Assembly (NCBI GenBank): GCA_024998565.1
Contig: JACOEM010000005.1
Coordinates: 186,001 to 250,000 of the forward strand
From: Nitrospira sp.
Lineage (GTDB): Bacteria; Nitrospirota; Nitrospiria; Nitrospirales; Nitrospiraceae
Length of the DNA stretch: 64,000 nucleotides
Direction: 5' to 3'
Shown here: positions 3,289 to 62,183 of the stretch, in pieces
Numbering within the stretch: the first letter of the stretch is position 1
How the letters are laid out: each line of letters opens with the position of its first letter
Made by a program: the position numbers and the translations under genes
The notes under the pieces: generated by a model
What the model was told of the DNA's origin: nothing
Database searches by the model: none
The model's input: the letters and a program-made list of their open reading frames with translations, nothing else

Positions 3289-4059
3289 GTGAAACGTTCG
3301 GTGACGGTGGTGATTCCAGCCCGGTACGGTTCTTCACGATTCCCGGGCAAACCGCTGGTTGAGTTGCTGGGCAAACCGATGATCCAACATGTCTATGAGC
3401 AGGCGAAGGCTTGTCGCGCGGTCGATGACGTTCTGGTCGCCACGGATGACGAGCGCATCAAAACGGCGGTGCAGCGCTTCGGCGGACAGGTCGTGATGAT
3501 GACGGAGCCCTATCGCACCGGTACCGACCGCGTCGCCGCCGTCGCCGACAGCCGCACCGGCGACTGTTTCGTCGACCTGCAGGGAGACGAGATCCTACTC
3601 CATCCCGATCTCATCACCGACCTGGTCGAGCCCTTTCTGGCCAGCAAGGCCACGATGGGCACCTTGAAACGACAGATCGATTCCGATCAGGATCTCCACA
3701 ACCCGGGCGTGGTCAAAGTGACTACCGATCGCGAGGGCTATGCCTTATATTTTTCCCGCGCGCCGATTCCGTTGGTGCGGGACGATCCGAAGCGGGCTGC
3801 GGTGCCGGGACTGCATTTCATTCACCTGGGCTTGTACATCTATACCCGGGAAACATTGCAACGTCTGACGGCCTTGCCAACAGGGACTTTGGAAGAGGCC
3901 GAAAAACTCGAACAACTGCGCGCCTTGGAAAACGGAATGCGTATCCGCGTGTGGGAAACCACCCACGGCTCCTTGCGCATCGATAGCCCCGAGGACGTGC
4001 CCGGCGCCCTGAAACAACTTCACAGCCGTGCAACCGGACTCGGCATCACTCACTCATGA
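3289..4059 (+). CDS. kdsB: 3-deoxy-manno-octulosonate cytidylyltransferase
   Basis: Activates Kdo with CTP to give CMP-Kdo, the donor for lipid A core assembly. The N-terminus [19 protein letters not shown] is the nucleotide-binding signature of KdsB. Further motifs are the VDLQGDEI metal-binding box and YFSRAPIP. Length 256 residues matches the family (about 250). I chose GTG at 3289 rather than the ATG at 3268 because it places the beta-strand motif at the usual distance from the start and avoids overlap with the kinase gene. It sits between the heptose kinase and pyrG, whose product CTP is its substrate. Confidence 0.94.
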
Positions 4060-4076
4060 CGAGAGAAGGTGCCACG

Positions 4077-5678
4077 ATGAGCAAACTGATTTTTGTGACC
4101 GGCGGTGTCGTATCGTCGCTCGGAAAGGGGCTGGCTTCCGCATCCATCGGCAATCTGCTGGAAAGCCGCGGGCTGAAGATCACGTTCCTCAAGCTCGATC
4201 CCTACATCAACGTCGATCCGGGCACCATGAATCCGTACCAGCATGGAGAGGTCTACGTCACGGAGGACGGGGCGGAAACCGACCTCGATCTGGGCCACTA
4301 TGAGCGGTATACCTCCCTGACTCTGACGCGCGAGAACAACTACACCACCGGCCGCATTTACCACGCCGTCATCACCAAGGAACGGCGCGGCGATTACCTG
4401 GGCGGAACGGTGCAAGTCGTGCCCCATGTCACGGACGAGATCAAGCAATGCATCATGCGCATTTCGCAAGGCATGGACGTCACGATCGTCGAGATCGGCG
4501 GGACCGTCGGCGACATCGAGAGCCTGCCGTTCCTGGAAGCCATCCGGCAAATCCCCTACGACGTCGGACGGGACAATGTCCTCTACGTGCACCTGACGCT
4601 GGTGCCCTACATCGGAGCCGCCGGCGAATTGAAAACCAAACCGACGCAGCATTCCGTGAACAAGCTGCGGGAAATCGGTATTCAACCGAACATTCTCCTG
4701 TGCCGCACCGACCGCTATCTTCCACCGGAGCTCAAGGCGAAGATCGCCATGTTCTGCAACGTGGAAAAAGATGCGGTCATCACGGCCAAGGATGTCGAGA
4801 CCATCTACGAAGTGCCCATCGTGTTTCGCAAAGAAGGACTGGATGAACTGATCGTCCGCCAGCTCAAGCTGGAAACCGGTCCGCCGAATCTCCGCGAGTG
4901 GGATGCGATGGTACAGAAGATCAAGCATCCCAAACACGAGGTGTCGATCGCGCTGGTCGGGAAATATGCCGGCTTGAAGGAATGTTATAAGAGCCTGGCG
5001 GAAGCGCTGGTGCACGGCGGCATCGATCATGAAACCCGCGTGAATGTGAACTGGATCGAATCCGAAGAGGTAGAGCGTCAGGGGACCGAGCGTATTCTCC
5101 GCGAAGCCGACGGCATTCTCATTCCGGGCGGATTCGGGGCGCGGGGAATCGAAGGCAAGATCGTCACCATTCAATATGCGCGAGAACATCAAATTCCGTT
5201 CCTCGGCCTCTGCCTGGGCATGCAATGCGCCACGATCGAATTTGCGCGCAACGTCGCCGGCCTCACCGGTGCCAACAGCGCGGAATTCGATGAAAAGACC
5301 CCGCATCCGGTGATTCACCTGATGTCCGACCAACAGTCGGTCAACGACAAGGGCGGCACCATGCGGCTCGGCGCCTATGCCTGCAAGCTGGGCGAGGGGA
5401 CGCTGGCGCAAAAGATGTACGGGGTCAGCGAGGTACGCGAACGGCATCGCCATCGATATGAATTCAATAATGCCTATCGCGAGCAATTGACGGCCAAGGG
5501 ACTGATTTTGAGCGGCTTGTCTCCGGACGGTCGCCTGGTGGAAATCGTCGAGTTGCGGAACCACCCCTGGTTCCTGGCTACGCAGTTTCATCCGGAATAC
5601 AAGTCACGGCCGCATCACCCGCATCCGTTATTCAGCGGGTTTGTGGGGGCGGCGTTGCGCCGCAAATGCGGCCACTAA
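4077..5678 (+). CDS. pyrG: CTP synthase
   Basis: Converts UTP to CTP using glutamine. The N-terminal amidoligase domain begins with [14 protein letters not shown], its P-loop. The C-terminal class I glutamine amidotransferase domain has the nucleophile in FLGLCLGMQ and the His/Glu pair in FHPEYKSRP. Length 533 residues is typical. The ATG at 4077 has GAGAAGG seven bases upstream; an in-frame ATG at 4056 overlaps the kdsB stop and would add seven unconserved residues. Coupling to kdsB fits CTP supply for CMP-Kdo. Confidence 0.97.
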
Positions 5679-5681
5679 ATG

Positions 5682-5800
5682 GGATGCTGAAACTGCCTTT
5701 CGGCGGCGTTCTCGACTCGGCACAATCCTCGACGTAGCTCCGCTACGCCTCCGGTTCTGCCTTGTCTGCGGCCTTGCTGAAAGATCAGTTTGAGCATCCC
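5682..5800. repeat. REP-like 119-bp palindromic repeat, copy 1
   Basis: Intergenic element between pyrG and kdsA with terminal inverted repeats GGGATGCTGAAACTG and CAGTTTGAGCATCCC (14 of 15 pair). In the middle is the small palindrome CGTAGCTCCGCTACG. A related sequence lies at 20404-20524 in the opposite orientation. The two share TGAAACTG, CGTTCTC, the central palindrome followed by CCTC, CTGCGGCCTTGCTG and TTTGAG in the same order. It forces the kdsA start downstream to 5822. Probably a non-autonomous REP or MITE-type sequence. Confidence 0.75.
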
Positions 5801-5821
5801 GTGAATTCAGAAGAGACGACT

Positions 5822-6643
5822 ATGGCGTACGACGTAGACTTAGGACAATTTAAGATCGGGGCGGGGCATCGGCCGTTTTTGATCGCGGGTCCCTGCGTGA
5901 TTGAGAATGAACAGCTCGTCATGGACACGGCAGGGCGTATTGCCGACATCACCAAAGCGATCGGCATGCCCTACGTCTTCAAGTCATCCTTCGACAAGGC
6001 CAATCGCACCTCCATCACCTCGTTTCGTGGACCAGGCTTGGAGAAGGGCTTGGCCGTGCTCGCCAGGGTTAAGCAACAGATCGGTGTGCCGGTGTTGACC
6101 GATGTCCATTCGGAAGAGCAGGCCACAGAGGCTGGTCGCATCGTGGATATCCTGCAGATTCCGGCCTTTCTCTGTCGCCAGACCGACCTGCTGATCGCCG
6201 CTGCCAAGACCGGCAAGGTCGTCAATATCAAAAAGGGACAGTTTCTCTCCCCGCCCGAAATGGGCAACGCGGTGAAGAAAGTGGAAGACAGCGGGAATCG
6301 ACGCATCGTGTTGACCGAACGTGGCTCCTCCTTCGGCTACAATAATCTGGTCGTGGACATGCGCTCCTTTCCCATCATGCGCCGGTTCGGCTATCCGGTG
6401 GTCTTCGACGCGACCCACAGCGTGCAACTCCCCGGCGGAGGCGGCACGAAATCCAGCGGTCAGCGCGAATTCGTGGAACCATTGGCCTGTGCGGCGGCAG
6501 GCGCCGGCTGCGACGGGTTCTTCATGGAAGTGCACCCCGACCCGGATTCCGCGTTGTCTGACGGACCGAACATGGTCCCGCTACATACGCTCCAATCACT
6601 TCTCGAACGGGTACTACGTATATGGGACGCAGCCGCAAAATAA
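5822..6643 (+). CDS. kdsA: 3-deoxy-8-phosphooctulonate (Kdo-8-P) synthase, metal-dependent class
   Basis: Condenses arabinose 5-phosphate and phosphoenolpyruvate to Kdo 8-phosphate. The 273-residue TIM barrel carries [28 protein letters not shown] and [15 protein letters not shown] cysteine in AGPCVIENE replaces the asparagine of the E. coli enzyme, which places it in the metal-dependent class. The other expected ligands (His in DATHS, Glu and Asp in [10 protein letters not shown]) are present. The ATG at 5822 follows an AGAAGAG ribosome site. A longer frame from 5762 runs through the repeat and is rejected. The 3' end overlaps kdsD by 22 bp. Confidence 0.95.
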
Positions 6644-19078: not shown

Positions 19079-20356
19079 TCAGATCTTGTGCGGCAAGGCC
19101 CGATGCGCGATATCGGTTCGATAATGGCGGCCTTCAAATAAAATCGAAGGCACGGCTTGATACACCTGCGCCCGTGCATCGAGCAACGACGGCCCCCAGG
19201 CAGTGACCGCCAGAACTCGTCCGCCCGCGGTCACCACACGCCCCGACTCCCGTTTCGTGCCGGCGTGGAACACCGCGACCCGTGATTCATCGGATGGAGC
19301 AGGCAGCCCTTGAATGGGAAGGCCGGTCGGATAGGAACCGGGATAACCCGGCGAGGTCATCACGACGCACACGGCCGTCTCCGGATGCCATTCCACCGTC
19401 AATTCATCCAGACGGTGCTCGACCACCGCCTCCATCACCTCGACAAGATCGGTTTTCAGGAGCGGCAGCACCACTTCCGTTTCAGGATCCCCCATGCGCG
19501 CATTGAACTCCAGCACATACGGGATTCCCTTCACGACCATGAGGCCAGCGTAGAGCACTCCTTGAAAGGGGCAACCCAGACGGGCCAGTGCATCCACCGT
19601 CGGCTGCAGCACCTGACGCGTCACCTGTTCACGAAGCGCGGCCGTGGCGATCGGCGCCGGGGCATAGGCGCCCATGCCGCCGGTATTGGGTCCGCTGTCC
19701 CCATCTCCCACTCGTTTGTGGTCCTGAGCCGGCACCATGGGGACCACGGTTTTCCCGTCGGTGAAGGCCATGAGCGTCAACTCTTCGCCGTCCAGAAACT
19801 CTTCGATCAACACACGATGTCCGGCCTGGCCGAACAGGGACTTTTCCATGGCATCGCGAACCGCCTGCTTGGCCTCCTCGCGCGTCGTGGCCACGACCAC
19901 CCCTTTGCCCTGCGCGAGTCCGTCGGCCTTCACGACGATCGGAACCGGCTGCTCGTCCAGATAGGCCAACGCCTGGTCCATACGCTCAAAGCTGCGTGCA
20001 GCCGCGGTGGGGATTCGATTGGCGCCCATGATGTCTTTGGAGAAACTCTTGCTGGATTCCAGGCGAGCGGCGGCCTTGGTCGGACCGAAGATTTTCAGTC
20101 GTGCCTTGCGGAATTCATCCGCAATGCCCAACGCCAACGGCGCTTCCGGGCCGACTACGGTGAGATCGATCTGCTCCTTGAGCGCAAACGCCTTGAGACC
20201 CTCGATATCGTCGGCCTTGATCGGGACACAGGTGGCGAGACCGTCGATGCCGGCATTCCCCGGTGCACAGAAAATTTCCGGCTTCCGCGGACTTTGGGCG
20301 ATCTTCCACACCATGGCATGTTCCCGACCACCGCCACCGACAACAAGAATCTTCAC
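19079..20356 (-). CDS. purD: Phosphoribosylamine-glycine ligase
   Basis: Second step of purine synthesis: phosphoribosylamine + glycine + ATP to GAR. The 425-residue ATP-grasp protein starts MKILVVGGGGREHAMVWK and carries VVGPEAPLALG, KADGLAQGKGVVVA, GPNTGGMGAYAPAP and LEFNARMGDPETEVVLP, all PurD hallmarks. Transcribed with purH upstream (170 bp apart, with a REP-like repeat between them) and tsaC downstream. Confidence 0.96.
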   Translation of the reverse strand: MKILVVGGGGREHAMVWKIAQSPRKPEIFCAPGNAGIDGLATCVPIKADDIEGLKAFALKEQIDLTVVGPEAPLALGIADEFRKARLKIFGPTKAAARLESSKSFSKDIMGANRIPTAAARSFERMDQALAYLDEQPVPIVVKADGLAQGKGVVVATTREEAKQAVRDAMEKSLFGQAGHRVLIEEFLDGEELTLMAFTDGKTVVPMVPAQDHKRVGDGDSGPNTGGMGAYAPAPIATAALREQVTRQVLQPTVDALARLGCPFQGVLYAGLMVVKGIPYVLEFNARMGDPETEVVLPLLKTDLVEVMEAVVEHRLDELTVEWHPETAVCVVMTSPGYPGSYPTGLPIQGLPAPSDESRVAVFHAGTKRESGRVVTAGGRVLAVTAWGPSLLDARAQVYQAVPSILFEGRHYRTDIAHRALPHKI

Positions 20357-20403
20357 AGCTCAACCTTTACTTTATGGGAAGTGCACACGATGCTCACACC
20401 TGA

Positions 20404-20524
20404 GGCTTCTCAAAATGGTCGTCCAGCAAGGCCGCAGGGAAGCCAGAGGCTGAGGCGTACCATCGTTGGTACGTTGAAGCATCTGGCTGACTGAGAACGC
20501 AGCTGGCGGCCAGTTTCAGAAGCC
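20404..20524. repeat. REP-like 120-bp palindromic repeat, copy 2
   Basis: Lies between purH and purD, ending two bases from the purH stop. Outer ends GGCTTCTCAAAATGG and CAGTTTCAGAAGCC form imperfect inverted repeats. The centre has the palindrome GTACCATCGTTGGTAC. Reverse-complemented it aligns with the 5682-5800 element over its whole length with conserved blocks (TGAAACTG, CGTTCTC, TACGCCTC, CTGCGGCCTTGCTG). Confidence 0.75.
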
Positions 20525-20526
20525 GA

Positions 20527-22080
20527 TTAGTGGCGGAAGTGGCGCATACCGGTCAGTATCATCGCCATCCCGTGTTCGTCCACAGCCTTCGTCACTTCAG
20601 GATCGCGGATTGAACCGCCCGGCTGAATCACACAGGTAATGCCGGCTTCCGCCGCCGCATCAATGCCGTCACGGAACGGGAAAAATGCATCGGATGCCAT
20701 CACGCAGCCCTTCACAGGCGACTGGGCTTTCATGACGGCCAGTTTCACCGAGTCCACCCGGCTCATTTGTCCGGCCCCGATTCCGACGATTTCGCCCGGC
20801 CGCCCGTAGATGATGGCGTTCGACTTCACATGTTTACAGACCACCCAGGCAAACGCACAGGCCGCATATTCTTCTTCGGTCGGCTTGCGCGAGGTCGGAA
20901 CCGCCAGTGCCTTGATGTCCTTGATCGTCCCCAGATCGCGATCCTGCACGATCAATCCACCGACCAGCTTCTTGAGGTCATATCCTTCCGCAGTCGCCTT
21001 GCTCAGCGGTCCCACGTCCAGGAGGCGGATGTCCTTCTTGCGCTTGAGTTCAGCCAGCGCGTCCTCAGCGAAGCCTGGCGCGATGACCACCTCCACGAAG
21101 GTCGAGGTGATTTCCTTGGCCGCAGCCAGATCCACGGGACGGTTGAACGCAATCACGCCGCCGAATGCCGACACGGGGTCGGTCGCGCGCGCTTTCACAT
21201 AGGCTTCCACCGGCGTCGCGCCGAGCGCGCAGCCGCAGGGATTGTTGTGCTTAATGATCGCCACAGCGGTCTGATCGAACTCTTTCACCAGCTCAAGCGC
21301 CGAATTGGAGTCGAGGAAGTTATTGTAGGACATGGCCTTGCCGTGCAGGATTTTCCCGCGCGACACGGCGGGTTCCTTGGCATTCATTTCACGATAGAAG
21401 GCCCCTTGCTGATGCGGATTTTCTCCATAACGCAGTGTTTCCACCCGCTCGAACTGCAGCGAGAGGATGGCGGGGAATTTCACCTCGCTCCCCTGGACCT
21501 GCTTTTCAAGATACCCGGCGATCAGACTGTCGTACCGGGCCGTGTGCTGAAACACCTTCATGGCCAATTCGCGTCGCAGCGCGGGCGTCACGGAACCGGA
21601 CTTCAGCGCCTCCAGCACCCGGCCGTAGTCGGCGGGATCGACCAGCACCAACACGTCTTCATGATTCTTTGCGGCGGATCGCAACATCGACGGCCCGCCG
21701 ATATCGATATTTTCGATGGCCTCTTCGAACGGACAATTGGGCTTCGCGATCGTCGACTCGAAGGGATAGAGATTGACCACCACCACATCGATGTTGCCGA
21801 TGCCGTGCTGCTGCATCTGCGCCACATGATCGGGCACACGACGGCGGCCGAGGAGTCCGCCATGAATTTTCGGGTGCAATGTTTTCACGCGCCCGTCCAG
21901 GATCTCCGGCGATCCCGTATAGGCGGCCACGTCGGTGACAGCCACGCCGGCCTCACGCAAGGCTTTCGCGGTTCCACCGGTGGACAATACTTCGGCGCCC
22001 AGGGCCGCCAGCCCCTTCGCCATCTCGACGACTCCGGTCTTATCAGAAACACTGATCAGTGCCCGCGCAATGCTGGCCAT
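20527..22080 (-). CDS. purH: Bifunctional AICAR transformylase/IMP cyclohydrolase
   Basis: Last two steps of IMP synthesis. 517 residues. The N-terminal MGS-like cyclohydrolase domain has [32 protein letters not shown] and [11 protein letters not shown]. The C-terminal transformylase domain has [13 protein letters not shown], the catalytic [11 protein letters not shown] and [15 protein letters not shown] 22080 (MASIARAL) has AGGAG six bases upstream; an in-frame ATG 15 bases earlier is less likely. Confidence 0.96.
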
Positions 22081-22432
22081 GATGAACTCCTTCAACTATT
22101 GATATCGTGTGGGTGGGAAACCATGAGCTAGACGAAAAGCGCCGTGACAATACCAGATGGCTCACGGCGACTGCAAGCCGAACACCCCTCAACCCGACCC
22201 CCGAACGGCACGGCTGCGCGGCACGAAATCACCCGGCAGAATCCGGCCTCTTCCGAAGAATCCAGGCTAGCATGAGTGCTGGTGATGTGATACCCTTCCG
22301 CCGATAGAGATGCGCCGACAGAGATCACGCATCAGCTTAATCAAGTAACACTCGAAGTCTTGAAACGACACCAGCCCACGGCGACTCGATGCCGCAGCGG
22401 GGCCTCGTACCTGAGACGATAAAGGCTTGCGC
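22081..22432. other. Divergent intergenic region between purH and OmpA-type gene
   Basis: No gene recognised. Short frames have no ribosome site. The only repetition seen is the pair GCCGATAGAGATGC / GCCGACAGAGATCAC around 22300-22330. Promoters for both flanking genes should lie here, but none stands out. Confidence 0.45.
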
Positions 22433-53832: not shown

Positions 53833-53853
53833 CGAGGCCCTCTCTCTTTGTTT

Positions 53854-53877
53854 GGGGTCAGGTCTTGCAATCACACA
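53854..53877 (-). repeat. RAYT-terminus-type repeat, copy A
   Basis: GGGGTCAGGTCTTGCAATCA plus CACA on the + strand; identical to copy B over 24 bases. It lies 22 bp upstream of the mazG start. It faces the degenerate copy at 54061-54077. Confidence 0.85.
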
Positions 53878-54077
53878 AATTACTCTTTCCTTACGGCCGC
53901 CGCAGCCGGCGCGTTTCTCGTCGAACTACGCTGGAATCCTGCAATCGAATTGTCCGTTCTCTGCCCGCCCTTGTCCTGCCTGGTTGCAAATTCCGGGGCA
54001 CGGAGAAATCCAGACAGAGGAACTGGATTACCGGCGAGTGTACGGCCTCGTCAGGAATCATTGCCAGACCTGACTCA
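53854..54077. mobile_element. Putative 224-bp non-autonomous RAYT-related mini-element
   Basis: The left end is copy A (GGGGTCAGGTCTTGCAA). The right end is its inverted, degenerate counterpart TTGCCAGACCTGACTC (14 of 17 to the consensus), which also carries the short hairpin GTCAGG (54050-54055)/CCTGAC (54069-54074). Orientation of the ends is the same as around the transposase gene at 54787-55688, but the inside encodes nothing. Fits a MITE-like derivative; mobility is not shown. Confidence 0.5.
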
Positions 54078-54771: not shown

Positions 54772-54803
54772 GCCTCCCCCCTTGTCGGGGTCAGGTCTTG
54801 CAA

Positions 54804-55640
54804 TCACACATTTCTCTGTTCAACCCGCTTCAGGCGGCGGCTCACCGTAGCGGCATGCACACCCAGATGGTCCGCAATTTGGGCCAGCCGATACCCGTAC
54901 TGCCGATAGGCCTGATGGATGATCTTCTCCAGGTCCGTCTTCCGCTCAAACAGTGTCTCCAAGGACGGCCGTTGAGCCTGCGTCTGTTGGCGCGGAATGT
55001 CACGGATGACCCGATTCGGTTGGTGCTGCGCCACAAATTTTTCCGACCCCAGATAGATCTGGCCGGTGAGCTGTTCCCAGGGGCCCGCCTCTCCTCGCCC
55101 CTCGGCCACAAAGGTGCGATATCGCTCCTGCGCCGGCCCCTCGCGCTGCCCGAATTGGCTCAGAATCCAGTCCGTCGTTAGCCAGGCAGGCGCCTTCGTC
55201 TCCCCCGCTGTCGCCCGATAACTGCTCCAGGCCCACAGCCGGGGATGCGATACCATCTTCGCGCGGACGGGATTCAGCACGACGTACCGGCACAACTCAA
55301 GCAGATGCGCGTCTTTTTCGAGTAGAATCGCCGTAAACCGCCCTTGAAACAAATGCCCGACCTGCTCGTGCCGGAGGTTGTAGGCCTGCGTGTAGCGGCC
55401 GTTCAACTGCCGCATGCCAAGCGACACATTCGGCTTCGGCGTCTCGATCAACAGATGATAGTGATTGTCCATCAGGCAGTAGGCATGGCAGATCCACCCA
55501 TAGCGATCGACGACATGGGCCAGCAAGCTCAGCCACTGTGAACGATCACGGTCGTCAGCCACGATGTCCTGCCGGGCGTTACCCCGACTCGTGACATGGT
55601 AGACGGCGCCGGGGAATGAGAGACGGAGGGGACGTGCCAT
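54804..55640 (-). CDS. REP-associated tyrosine transposase (TnpA_REP, Y1 HUH family)
   Basis: 278 residues from ATG 55640 (MARPLRLSFPGAVYHVTSRG); an ATG at 55664 would add eight residues. The Y1 HUH fold shows the catalytic HxH in LMDNHYHLLIETP and the nucleophile region LNGRYTQAYNLRHEQVGHLF, followed by GRFTAILLEKDAHLLELCRY and NPVRAKMV. A C-terminal helix-turn-helix (IADHLGVHAATVSRRLKRVE) is typical of the longer RAYT subgroup. RAYTs cut and join single-stranded REP hairpins. It appears intact. Confidence 0.9.
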   Translation of the reverse strand: MARPLRLSFPGAVYHVTSRGNARQDIVADDRDRSQWLSLLAHVVDRYGWICHAYCLMDNHYHLLIETPKPNVSLGMRQLNGRYTQAYNLRHEQVGHLFQGRFTAILLEKDAHLLELCRYVVLNPVRAKMVSHPRLWAWSSYRATAGETKAPAWLTTDWILSQFGQREGPAQERYRTFVAEGRGEAGPWEQLTGQIYLGSEKFVAQHQPNRVIRDIPRQQTQAQRPSLETLFERKTDLEKIIHQAYRQYGYRLAQIADHLGVHAATVSRRLKRVEQRNV

Positions 55641-55664
55641 GAGCGGGAGTGTAGTCTGTGACAT

Positions 55665-55688
55665 TGTTCAATTGCAAGACCTGACCCC
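55665..55688 (+). repeat. RAYT-terminus-type repeat, copy C
   Basis: TGTTCAATTGCAAGACCTGA plus CCCC; right end of the transposase element, 17 bp beyond the cydB stop. Confidence 0.85.
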
Positions 55689-58145: not shown

Positions 58146-58212
58146 AGACCTGACGGGGATGCTAGTGACTTCCCCAGGGCCGATGAAGTATTCGATTGCA
58201 AGACCTGACCCC
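58146..58212 (+). repeat. RAYT-terminus-type repeat, copy D (with partial tandem core)
   Basis: Full 24-base copy at 58189-58212 ending TTGCAAGACCTGACCCC. A partial core AGACCTGAC lies at 58146-58154, in the same orientation. The 49 bases 58164-58212 match copy E (59799-59847) at 39 positions, beginning AGTSACTTCCCCAG. Located between pssA and cydA, 36 bp beyond the pssA stop. Confidence 0.8.
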
Positions 58213-59798: not shown

Positions 59799-59847
59799 AG
59801 TCACTTCCCCAGAATCGGTCGATTGTTTGATTGCAAGACCTGACCCC
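59799..59847 (+). repeat. RAYT-terminus-type repeat, copy E
   Basis: 24-base core at 59824-59847 (TGTTTGATTGCAAGACCTGA plus CCCC) with a 25-base left extension shared with copy D. Lies 22 bp beyond the hflX stop and upstream of the phhB remnant. Confidence 0.85.
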
Positions 59848-59868
59848 GAATAGGGTGGAATCCGCGCC

Positions 59869-61750: not shown

Positions 61751-62183
61751 GAAGTCCTCCCTGAGGGGTGAACATTGCCACGGCACACCATCACGATCGA
61801 GGATAACAGGCAGTCCGTGAAGGATCAATTAGGGCGGCGGGCGAAACACAGGATCAAACCATCAGCGGCGTGGTGGGGACGGAGAGTCAGAGGCTAGCGA
61901 TGCGTGAAGCGAAAAGACTAACGGTGAACAAGCCGAAGGCACCGAGGTGTGGGGCTCACGGGAAGGATAGACTCCCGTCAGGTCAGAATGTTTGATTGCA
62001 AGACCTGACCCTATTTTAGGCCTTCAAATGACCTGCCATGACCTCAGCAATGAAACCATTCCTGACACCAATTCCGCGGTGGCTTGAACTGCCTCCATTT
62101 TGGAAACAGTTGAGATTCGCCTTGTTTTCCACAGGCAAGGGTGGTGTTGCCGACGTTAAAAGGGAAAAAGTGCTGGAGCCATC
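61751..62183. other. Intergenic region holding repeat copy F
   Basis: No gene recognised between the YkvA gene and the end of the HsdR fragment. Repeat copy F lies at 61977-62012. Sequence quality and base content do not otherwise stand out. Confidence 0.5.
61977..62012 (+). repeat. RAYT-terminus-type repeat, copy F with REP-like hairpin
   Basis: TGTTTGATTGCAAGACCTGA plus CCCT at 61989-62012. GTCAGGTC (61977-61984) pairs with GACCTGAC (62002-62009), forming an 8-bp stem of the sort RAYT enzymes recognise. Last core base differs from the other copies. Confidence 0.8.

Follow-up and report, generated by a model that had tools for sequence, protein, structure and literature searches.

The 64,000-nt stretch of a Nitrospira genome analysed here (the window) holds two long hairpins, each placed between core biosynthetic genes, and the question they raise is what kind of repeat they are and whether the host makes use of them. 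The genus comprises nitrite oxidisers and organisms that oxidise ammonia completely. The first hairpin (5680-5801, forward strand; covariance-model match of 120.9 bits) lies between pyrG and kdsA and the second (20402-20526, reverse strand; 119.8 bits) between purH and purD, both in sense orientation. The original prediction had placed the pair at 5682-5800 and 20404-20524 as mutually inverted elements with ordered blocks in common, and both points were borne out: a 56-nt inverted pair, 79% complementary, heads the four pairs of at least 30 nt in the window. Upstream of the first hairpin is an open frame at 4056-5678 (+) which we take to be pyrG (CTP synthase), from the context of the original prediction and by recognition; kdsA, called from its open frame and translation, follows at 5822-6643 (+) with its start 20 nt past the hairpin, and its protein is at least 88% identical in 27 of the 29 genomes of the genus. 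On the reverse strand the open frame of purH (20527-22095, 522 aa) precedes the second hairpin, and the downstream frame at 19079-20356 is presumably purD, named by recognition of its start. The names kdsA and purH are those already given in the original prediction.

Both window hairpins begin at the stop codon or one base past it, between genes of the same direction. They fold back as had been claimed, and far better than shuffled sequence, with -58.5 kcal/mol at pyrG-kdsA (z -6.0) and -58.6 kcal/mol at purH-purD (z -6.7), values equalled in 0 of 200 shuffles each. The central stem-loops read from sequence and fold do differ, being CGTAGC-TCC-GCTACG at 5733-5747 (+) and CGTACCA/TGGTACG at 20456-20473 (-). 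A search of the 64-kb window against Rfam at gathering scores gave zero matches.

BLAST returned 44 matches in the genome itself (G000; 4.13 Mb in 19 contigs) at E<=10. A covariance model, R1, was built from 23 copies; 24 were first aligned and one (L023) was dropped for an insertion. With the best 150 of 2230 candidates scored, R1 gave at least 95 rows in this genome at E<=0.1, which include a few cases of a single place reported on both strands. A model search of the loci (102 rows) left at least 84 distinct copies of at least 47 bits each, after exclusion of opposite-strand twins, repeats from overlapping loci and one 63-nt match; three additional places, at C2:237021, C10:34353 and C18:17138, make this a minimum. 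The genome search that had been proposed thus shows that the window repeats are not an isolated pair. Mutual difference among 54 of the paralogues averages 25.5%, with a 5th percentile of 16.1%.

Of the 1055 cells in the 23-row alignment 87.7% pair, and in 32 of the 46 pairs both partners have changed. The covariation score is 0.348, compared with 0.121 for shuffled alignments, and 0 of 500 shuffles are as high; shifting the partner by one to three columns brings the score to 0.05-0.08. Covariation in the stem is therefore strong, and with the further copies both grounds named for rejecting the original prediction fall away. The original prediction had read the differing palindromes as a compensatory change that suggests selection for the hairpin. 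The direction of that argument holds with reservations, as dispersed copies could equally show subfamily history and orthologues in place are required; covariation among dispersed copies alone is no proof of RNA function.

Copies also occur in clusters, several per 6-10 kb and many of them one-stranded, at C2:468665-474289, C3:282745-291399, C10:70257-76755 and C11:23607-34110. The one-direction gene clustering at C2:468-474 kb prompted us to consider integron attC-like cassettes, a reading set aside in view of the transposon repeats at the ends and the target duplications around them. Intrinsic terminators were set aside as well, the commonest bases directly 3' of the hairpin being C, G, G, G by column counts, with no run of T.

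What the hairpins belong to became apparent from longer copies. A subset in the same genome shares about 80 bp further 3', up to a terminal repeat, after which the four bases preceding the element recur. The complete element, about 199 bp long, runs from a left inverted repeat through an imperfect hairpin of 125 bp into a tail of roughly 75 bp closed by the right inverted repeat, and a YTAR duplication of 4 bp flanks the whole; the terminal repeat recurs internally as the 3' arm of the hairpin. The terminal inverted repeats of intact copies read CAGGaTGCGGAAAAa.. and ..TTTTTCCGCAgCCTG. In the sister species G023 and G022, which carry many near-identical dispersed copies with duplications, a recognisable right end was present in 19 of 20 copies inspected; 17 of these 19 intact-looking copies are 199-200 bp long and 17 have identical 4-bp flanks, in searches whose patterns already demanded YTAR before the element and NTAN after it. 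Over all loci, a rule demanding identical flanks gave 61 distinct insertion contexts, some of which may be orthologous insertions in sister species: 44 CTAG, 10 TTAG, 6 CTAA and 1 ATAG, eight of the 61 being in the window's own genome. Among these intact copies 45 of 61 measure 197-201 bp, none of the lengths listed exceeds 313 bp, and there is no transposase gene.

Both window copies lack the right end, and they belong to the family by descent of the hairpin. A CTAA at 5675-5678 (+) fits YTAR, contains the pyrG stop TAA (5676-5678) and is, by the YTAR duplications of intact relatives, the presumed left target-site copy; the right-hand duplication is not preserved here. By its sequence, the CTAA at 20527-20530 (-), which contains the purH stop TAA, is likewise the presumed left target-site copy of the second hairpin.

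Variants exist around this plan. In L204, L206 and L213 of G023, and in L074:16212-16400, L077:11819-12007 and L105:1993-2181 of the window's own genome, the hairpin is about 65 bases longer at its middle. Since near-identical hairpins in G023 carry two different tails, the hairpin and tail parts look modular. A second, larger hairpin family is present in the own genome (L104:1985-2173, L075:2204-2391, L075:6798-6985, L098:2417-2604 and L102:1984-2171), with ends CTAG|GAGCCTGTCCG...CGGACAGGCTC|CTAG and an inner hairpin core common to both families. Two of the five copies listed are 98.9% identical over 189 bp, so that it has moved recently.

The right end TTTTCCGCAGCCTGYTAR was present in 19 of the 29 genus genomes, a reversed control gave 0 matches, and an exact search found it absent from the window's own genome. 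This search exposed inverted pairs of ends 1.3 kb apart, which proved to be insertion sequences of 1314-1317 bp in sister species (G001, G023, G020), bounded by perfect 16-bp ends CAGGCTGCGGAAAAAC and flanked by CTAG or TTAG. Their transposase (363 aa in G001) scores 285.4 bits against the IS5-family model NF033581 (cut-off 140) and 203 bits against the IS1182 model NF033551, below its cut-off of 270; its domains are DUF772 and DDE_Tnp_1. Transposase matches at E<=1e-60 were obtained in 9 of the 29 genus genomes, five with at least 77% identity, the G023 copy among these having one internal stop, and the other four, our genome included, with only 42-43%. Across ten transposase loci the ends were perfect at six, had two mismatches at two and were not found at two. 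The insertion sequence of the own genome, on C9, is 1378 bp long with ends CAGGCTGTTGACAAAC and CTAG flanks, and some MITE copies there, e.g. at L074:16212, carry an end that by eye resembles CAGGCTGTTGACAAAC. The hairpin model gave no significant match to the four sister insertion sequences or to that of the own genome (best 15 bits).

The shared ends and duplications, together with the IS5 transposase, therefore identify a MITE of IS5 type with two or more subtypes of end, and by sequence the window repeats are almost certainly the hairpin part of this non-autonomous family, whose ends match those of IS5-family insertion sequences. The MITE would be moved in trans by an IS5-type transposase. 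Speaking against this partner, 20 of the 29 genus genomes gave no transposase match at E<=1e-60, including G022, G014 and G012 with their many young MITEs, and the transposase relative in the own genome, which also lacks an exact copy of the right end, is only 42% identical.

These ends also bear on the view of the original prediction, that the repeats are REP-like (REP/BIME-type) and spread by a RAYT. Such a view could draw on the hairpins of many intergenic copies and on a Y1 transposase gene within the window itself, a RAYT-like protein of 286 aa at 54804-55664 (-) that sits amid TTGCAAGACCTGACCCC repeats in both orientations (53845-53878, 54775-54810, 55658-55687, 58182-58211, 59817-59859 and 61982-62011). 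It is contradicted by hairpins of about 125 bp within elements of about 199 bp, by true terminal inverted repeats with 4-bp YTAR duplications and by partners that are IS5-family DDE insertion sequences and not Y1/RAYT. REPs are described, in the text cited, as 20-40 bp long with a GTAG or CGTC tag (PMC3733652), whereas the tetranucleotide before the present hairpin is the duplicated YTAR. The second RAYT that had been suggested as a partner did not emerge either: both Y1_Tnp matches in the genome lie some 28 kb or farther from any copy listed. We thus regard spread by a RAYT as highly improbable. The Y1 transposase and its TTGCAAGACCTGACCCC repeats look like a separate REP-type system, and the hairpin family, as the original prediction held, gave no sign of relation to the TTGCAAGACC repeats. 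By extension, repeats of other genomes that lie close to stop codons and pass as 'REP-like' may also be MITEs of IS5 type.

The target site explains much about where copies lie. Because YTAR contains TAG and TAA, many copies begin exactly at a stop codon; an insertion there would preserve the stop, so that a sense-oriented hairpin would start right at it. Of the 84 copies, 29 directly follow the stop of a gene on their own strand and 42 start no more than 5 nt from one, and TAG accounts for 27 of the 38 stops abutted by old copies against 14 of the 54 stops of the window genes. By a simple gene caller none of the 84 lies inside a gene; 55 have both neighbouring genes on one strand (35 copies sense to them, 20 antisense), 20 lie where genes converge and 5 where they diverge, and 4 have one neighbour unknown. 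This caller overlooked the true kdsA start and puts the next gene 925 nt away.

Orientation was considered as proof of RNA function and set aside. The count of 42 sense to 2 antisense copies within 5 nt of a stop is misleading because the tail of an antisense copy sits between the stop and the hairpin. Within 100 nt, the 77 old copies comprise 53 sense and 22 antisense, and the 61 intact copies, scored at the element ends, 19 and 10; with these slightly different distance rules a stronger sense bias in old than in intact copies was not found (p 0.64). As such, target choice and geometry suffice for the abutment. G-U against A-C oppositions in the stems number 55:23 overall, 32:23 without the invariant U-G pair and 21:23 when pair 48/81 is also left out. 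A strand-specific role is thus unsupported both by the G-U to A-C count and by the orientation of old against intact copies.

Selection in place was judged from orthologous sites. The pyrG-kdsA site was recovered in 27 of the 29 genus genomes, 26 of them with a readable pyrG end, and one hairpin type is common to 15 of the 26. Outside this group are a second type (G011, G026, G018, G027), a third (G020, G001, G012), a fourth (G003, G017), the mini-hairpins of G021 and G004, and G010, which has no pyrG end. Among the 15 species the mean hairpin distance is 4.5%, compared with 40.4% for the four-fold sites of kdsA, and the hairpin value is the lower one in all 105 pairs; species are grouped here by hairpin type, a choice that itself lowers the within-group distance. 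In these orthologues 98.9% of 660 cells pair, three pairs carry double changes (a number reached in 3 of 500 shuffles), and the six central pairs CGTAGC/GCTACG are invariant. Compared ungrouped, the hairpins of 23 species differ by 17.4%, against 25.5% among the paralogues of the own genome; in pairs with a four-fold distance above 0.35, 93 of 212 fall under the 5th percentile of the paralogues and 30 under their minimum.

The purH-purD site was likewise recovered in 27 of 29 genomes, and in 25 of these 27 the purH stop is followed by an element; G004 has lost it and G003 lacks most of it. One type, in 13 species, differs by 11.4% against 47.4% at four-fold sites, the window's own type, in five species, by 7.2% against 44.4%, and a third, in three species, by 8.9% against 55.4%; G011, G017, G028, G014, G003 and G004 fall outside the groups. 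RNAalifold on the 13-species type gives 41 pairs, two with double changes and no net covariation bonus. Ungrouped, the hairpins of 26 genomes (the mostly deleted one of G003 included) differ by 24.2%, and 81 of 285 saturated pairs lie under the 5th percentile of the paralogues, 3 of 285 under their minimum. Set against the 25.5% of the paralogues, the ungrouped values of 17.4% and 24.2% indicate that similarity between types is about that of the family, and that distances within types are far lower.

Occupancy at 37 other sites of the own genome was compared over 69 orthologue pairs. The element was present in 46 of these (at least 90 nt at 60% identity); the other 23 fail this rule, some of the relatives having no element. 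In 25 occupied pairs with a four-fold distance of at least 20%, the elements differ by 16% against 40%, and by less in 23 of the 25. Little weight is given to this comparison, as the loci were picked for holding elements and paralogues differ by only about 25%.

The hairpins might instead be MITE debris of no host function, apparently conserved through re-invasion, conversion or mere family likeness. In keeping with this, paralogues at 25.5% already differ by less than saturated four-fold sites, different species have several hairpin types at one site, tandem copies occur at purH-purD (two in G028, one and part of another in G014), and the hairpin distances are uncorrelated with those of kdsA (rho 0.12, p 0.06). 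It follows from the latter that replacement, conversion or tandem-copy sorting also happened. G004, moreover, lives without the hairpins: it has a mini-hairpin remnant only at pyrG-kdsA (its loci being L169 and L416), and its loss at both sites, with that of most of the purH-purD element in G003, marks the hairpin as dispensable. Against debris stand the 4.5% within the pyrG-kdsA type over 15 species, far below the 16.1% of the paralogues' 5th percentile, the 56% difference in the aligned 3' flank of the same hairpins, and the want of a close converter, the next best BLAST match to the window's pyrG-kdsA hairpin in its genome being 77% identical. We therefore hold debris to be unlikely, and on these comparisons the hairpins at pyrG-kdsA and purH-purD appear, on balance, to be under selection.

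Two other features of the pyrG-kdsA site are noted here. A second, antisense element lies between the conserved hairpin and kdsA at L144, L145, L156 and L164 (in G015, G019, G022 and G006), and in three of the four loci a CTAG closes it directly ahead of the kdsA start. An N-terminal extension of kdsA through the hairpin was set aside as unlikely: the frame is open here, but the distance to the kdsA start differs from species to species and in some (G005, G009) the frame, read by eye, is lost.

The structure could also be kept at the DNA level, as a cruciform or protein site or with its arms held matched by template-switch correction, with no function in RNA. The lack of a G-U excess over A-C, a sense bias no stronger in old copies and the occurrence of covariation among dispersed copies too would all agree with a DNA-level structure. 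Simple arm correction, however, should remove mismatches and internal loops of the kind that in fact persist, for example a G facing G at alignment columns 10/120 and the unvarying blocks GTTCTC and GCGGCC that stand opposite each other. Structure at the DNA level seems to us improbable, if slightly less so than debris. By analogy with known repeats, action of the window hairpins in mRNA is the likeliest of these readings, though a little short of even odds.

Taken as a whole, the explanation that we favour, and consider fairly likely, is that these are hairpins of an IS5-type MITE exapted at the two window sites as intercistronic structures. This reading is adopted because hairpins within a type differ far less than synonymous sites and carry a few compensated pairs in place. 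Many old copies, both window ones included, have lost the right end yet retain the hairpin, and those at the two sites were probably taken into host use as structures separating two genes within a single transcript. Judging from ERIC, NEMIS and REPs, the hairpin may then act on mRNA in processing, in segmental stability or on ribosomes at the stop codon. If it does, one transposon altered many gene ends at once with the genes unbroken, since the target site keeps the stop codon. More speculatively, and with slightly less confidence than in action on RNA, the stop-overlapping MITE might have given Nitrospira many ready-made 3'-end hairpins, part of which would now be conserved regulators of core biosynthesis (pyrG-kdsA, purH-purD); the core in common with the second MITE family could make it a functional module common to different transposons.

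The family is widespread among relatives. R1 matches 59 of 61 genomes, the own one included, at E<=0.001, and in a sample of the phylum 63 of 148 genomes at E<=1e-6, of which 32 belong to the window's family, 5 to its order, 2 to its class and 24, mostly with weaker scores, are more distant; the number of matches counted per genome was capped at 57 in the first of these searches and at 23 in the second. G019 gave 99 matches at 1e-6, so that the two genomes searched in depth hold at least 84 and 99 hairpins, with two in the window between core biosynthetic genes. Phyla beyond Nitrospirota were covered by a pattern scan for the inner hairpin in named genomes, which found at least 119 stretches; among the 80 listed, all titles but one are Nitrospira (including N. 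moscoviensis), Nitrospiraceae, Nitrospirales, Nitrospirae or Nitrospirota, the exception being titled uncultured Nitrosospira, isolate NOB2. G004, a complete genome of the same genus, has 2 model matches against at least 35 in most sister genomes and is a natural near-knockout of the family. A contrast between species is thereby available at each site: the same hairpin, a different hairpin, or none (G004). Several young copies in G028 lie within 60 bases of contig ends (C9, C37, C315, C480, C483), and the element therefore probably breaks assemblies.

Literature searches on Nitrospira repeats, MITEs and IS5 returned no paper on this hairpin family among the best matches. CRISPR repeats are the only ones mentioned in the cited portion of one Nitrospira genome paper (PMC5767232), and N. 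moscoviensis stands in a table of REP numbers predicted by RepRanger (PMC12306157, from the part cited), a figure that could include these hairpins. The repeats form a new family of an already known MITE/hairpin type, with a clear stop-codon-target anatomy and signs of conservation in place.

Comparison with known systems begins with IS5 of E. coli, for which the excerpt cited gives the duplication motif YTAR (PMC10359306). The YTAR duplication is the same here and the partner insertion sequence is assigned to the IS5 family by NCBIfam; unlike the autonomous IS5, the present MITE has no transposase gene. MITEPsy1 of Pseudomonas syringae inserts after CTAG or YTAA according to the passages on it (PMC3189936), and is likewise short, with inverted repeats, a 4-nt duplication and the entry 'IS5?' in that paper's table; its repeats contain CTGAAAAAGCC, similar to CTGAAAAAG.. 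of the Nitrospira MITE. It differs in its 100 bp, its few copies and its other terminal bases, and those passages mention no conserved intergenic hairpin.

Parallels at the RNA level, too, are drawn from the relevant portions of the sources. NEMIS/Correia elements of Neisseria are MITEs that form mRNA hairpins as ours might, with RNA reported as a substrate of RNase III (PMC2229807, PMC10969869); the 24-bp inverted repeats and other sizes set these elements apart. In E. coli, REPs no more than 15 nt from a stop codon stall ribosomes and lower translation, according to a passage citing earlier work (PMC12306157). They resemble the present hairpins in their closeness to the stop, and differ in being short, without target duplications and served by another type of transposase. 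ERIC of enterobacteria has TA termini and 7-bp inverted repeats, and is likened to the Nitrospira element by description, not by sequence: it is a 127-bp palindromic intergenic MITE, co-transcribed, and reported to destabilise upstream mRNA through RNase E in an orientation-dependent manner (PMC2229807, PMC10969869).
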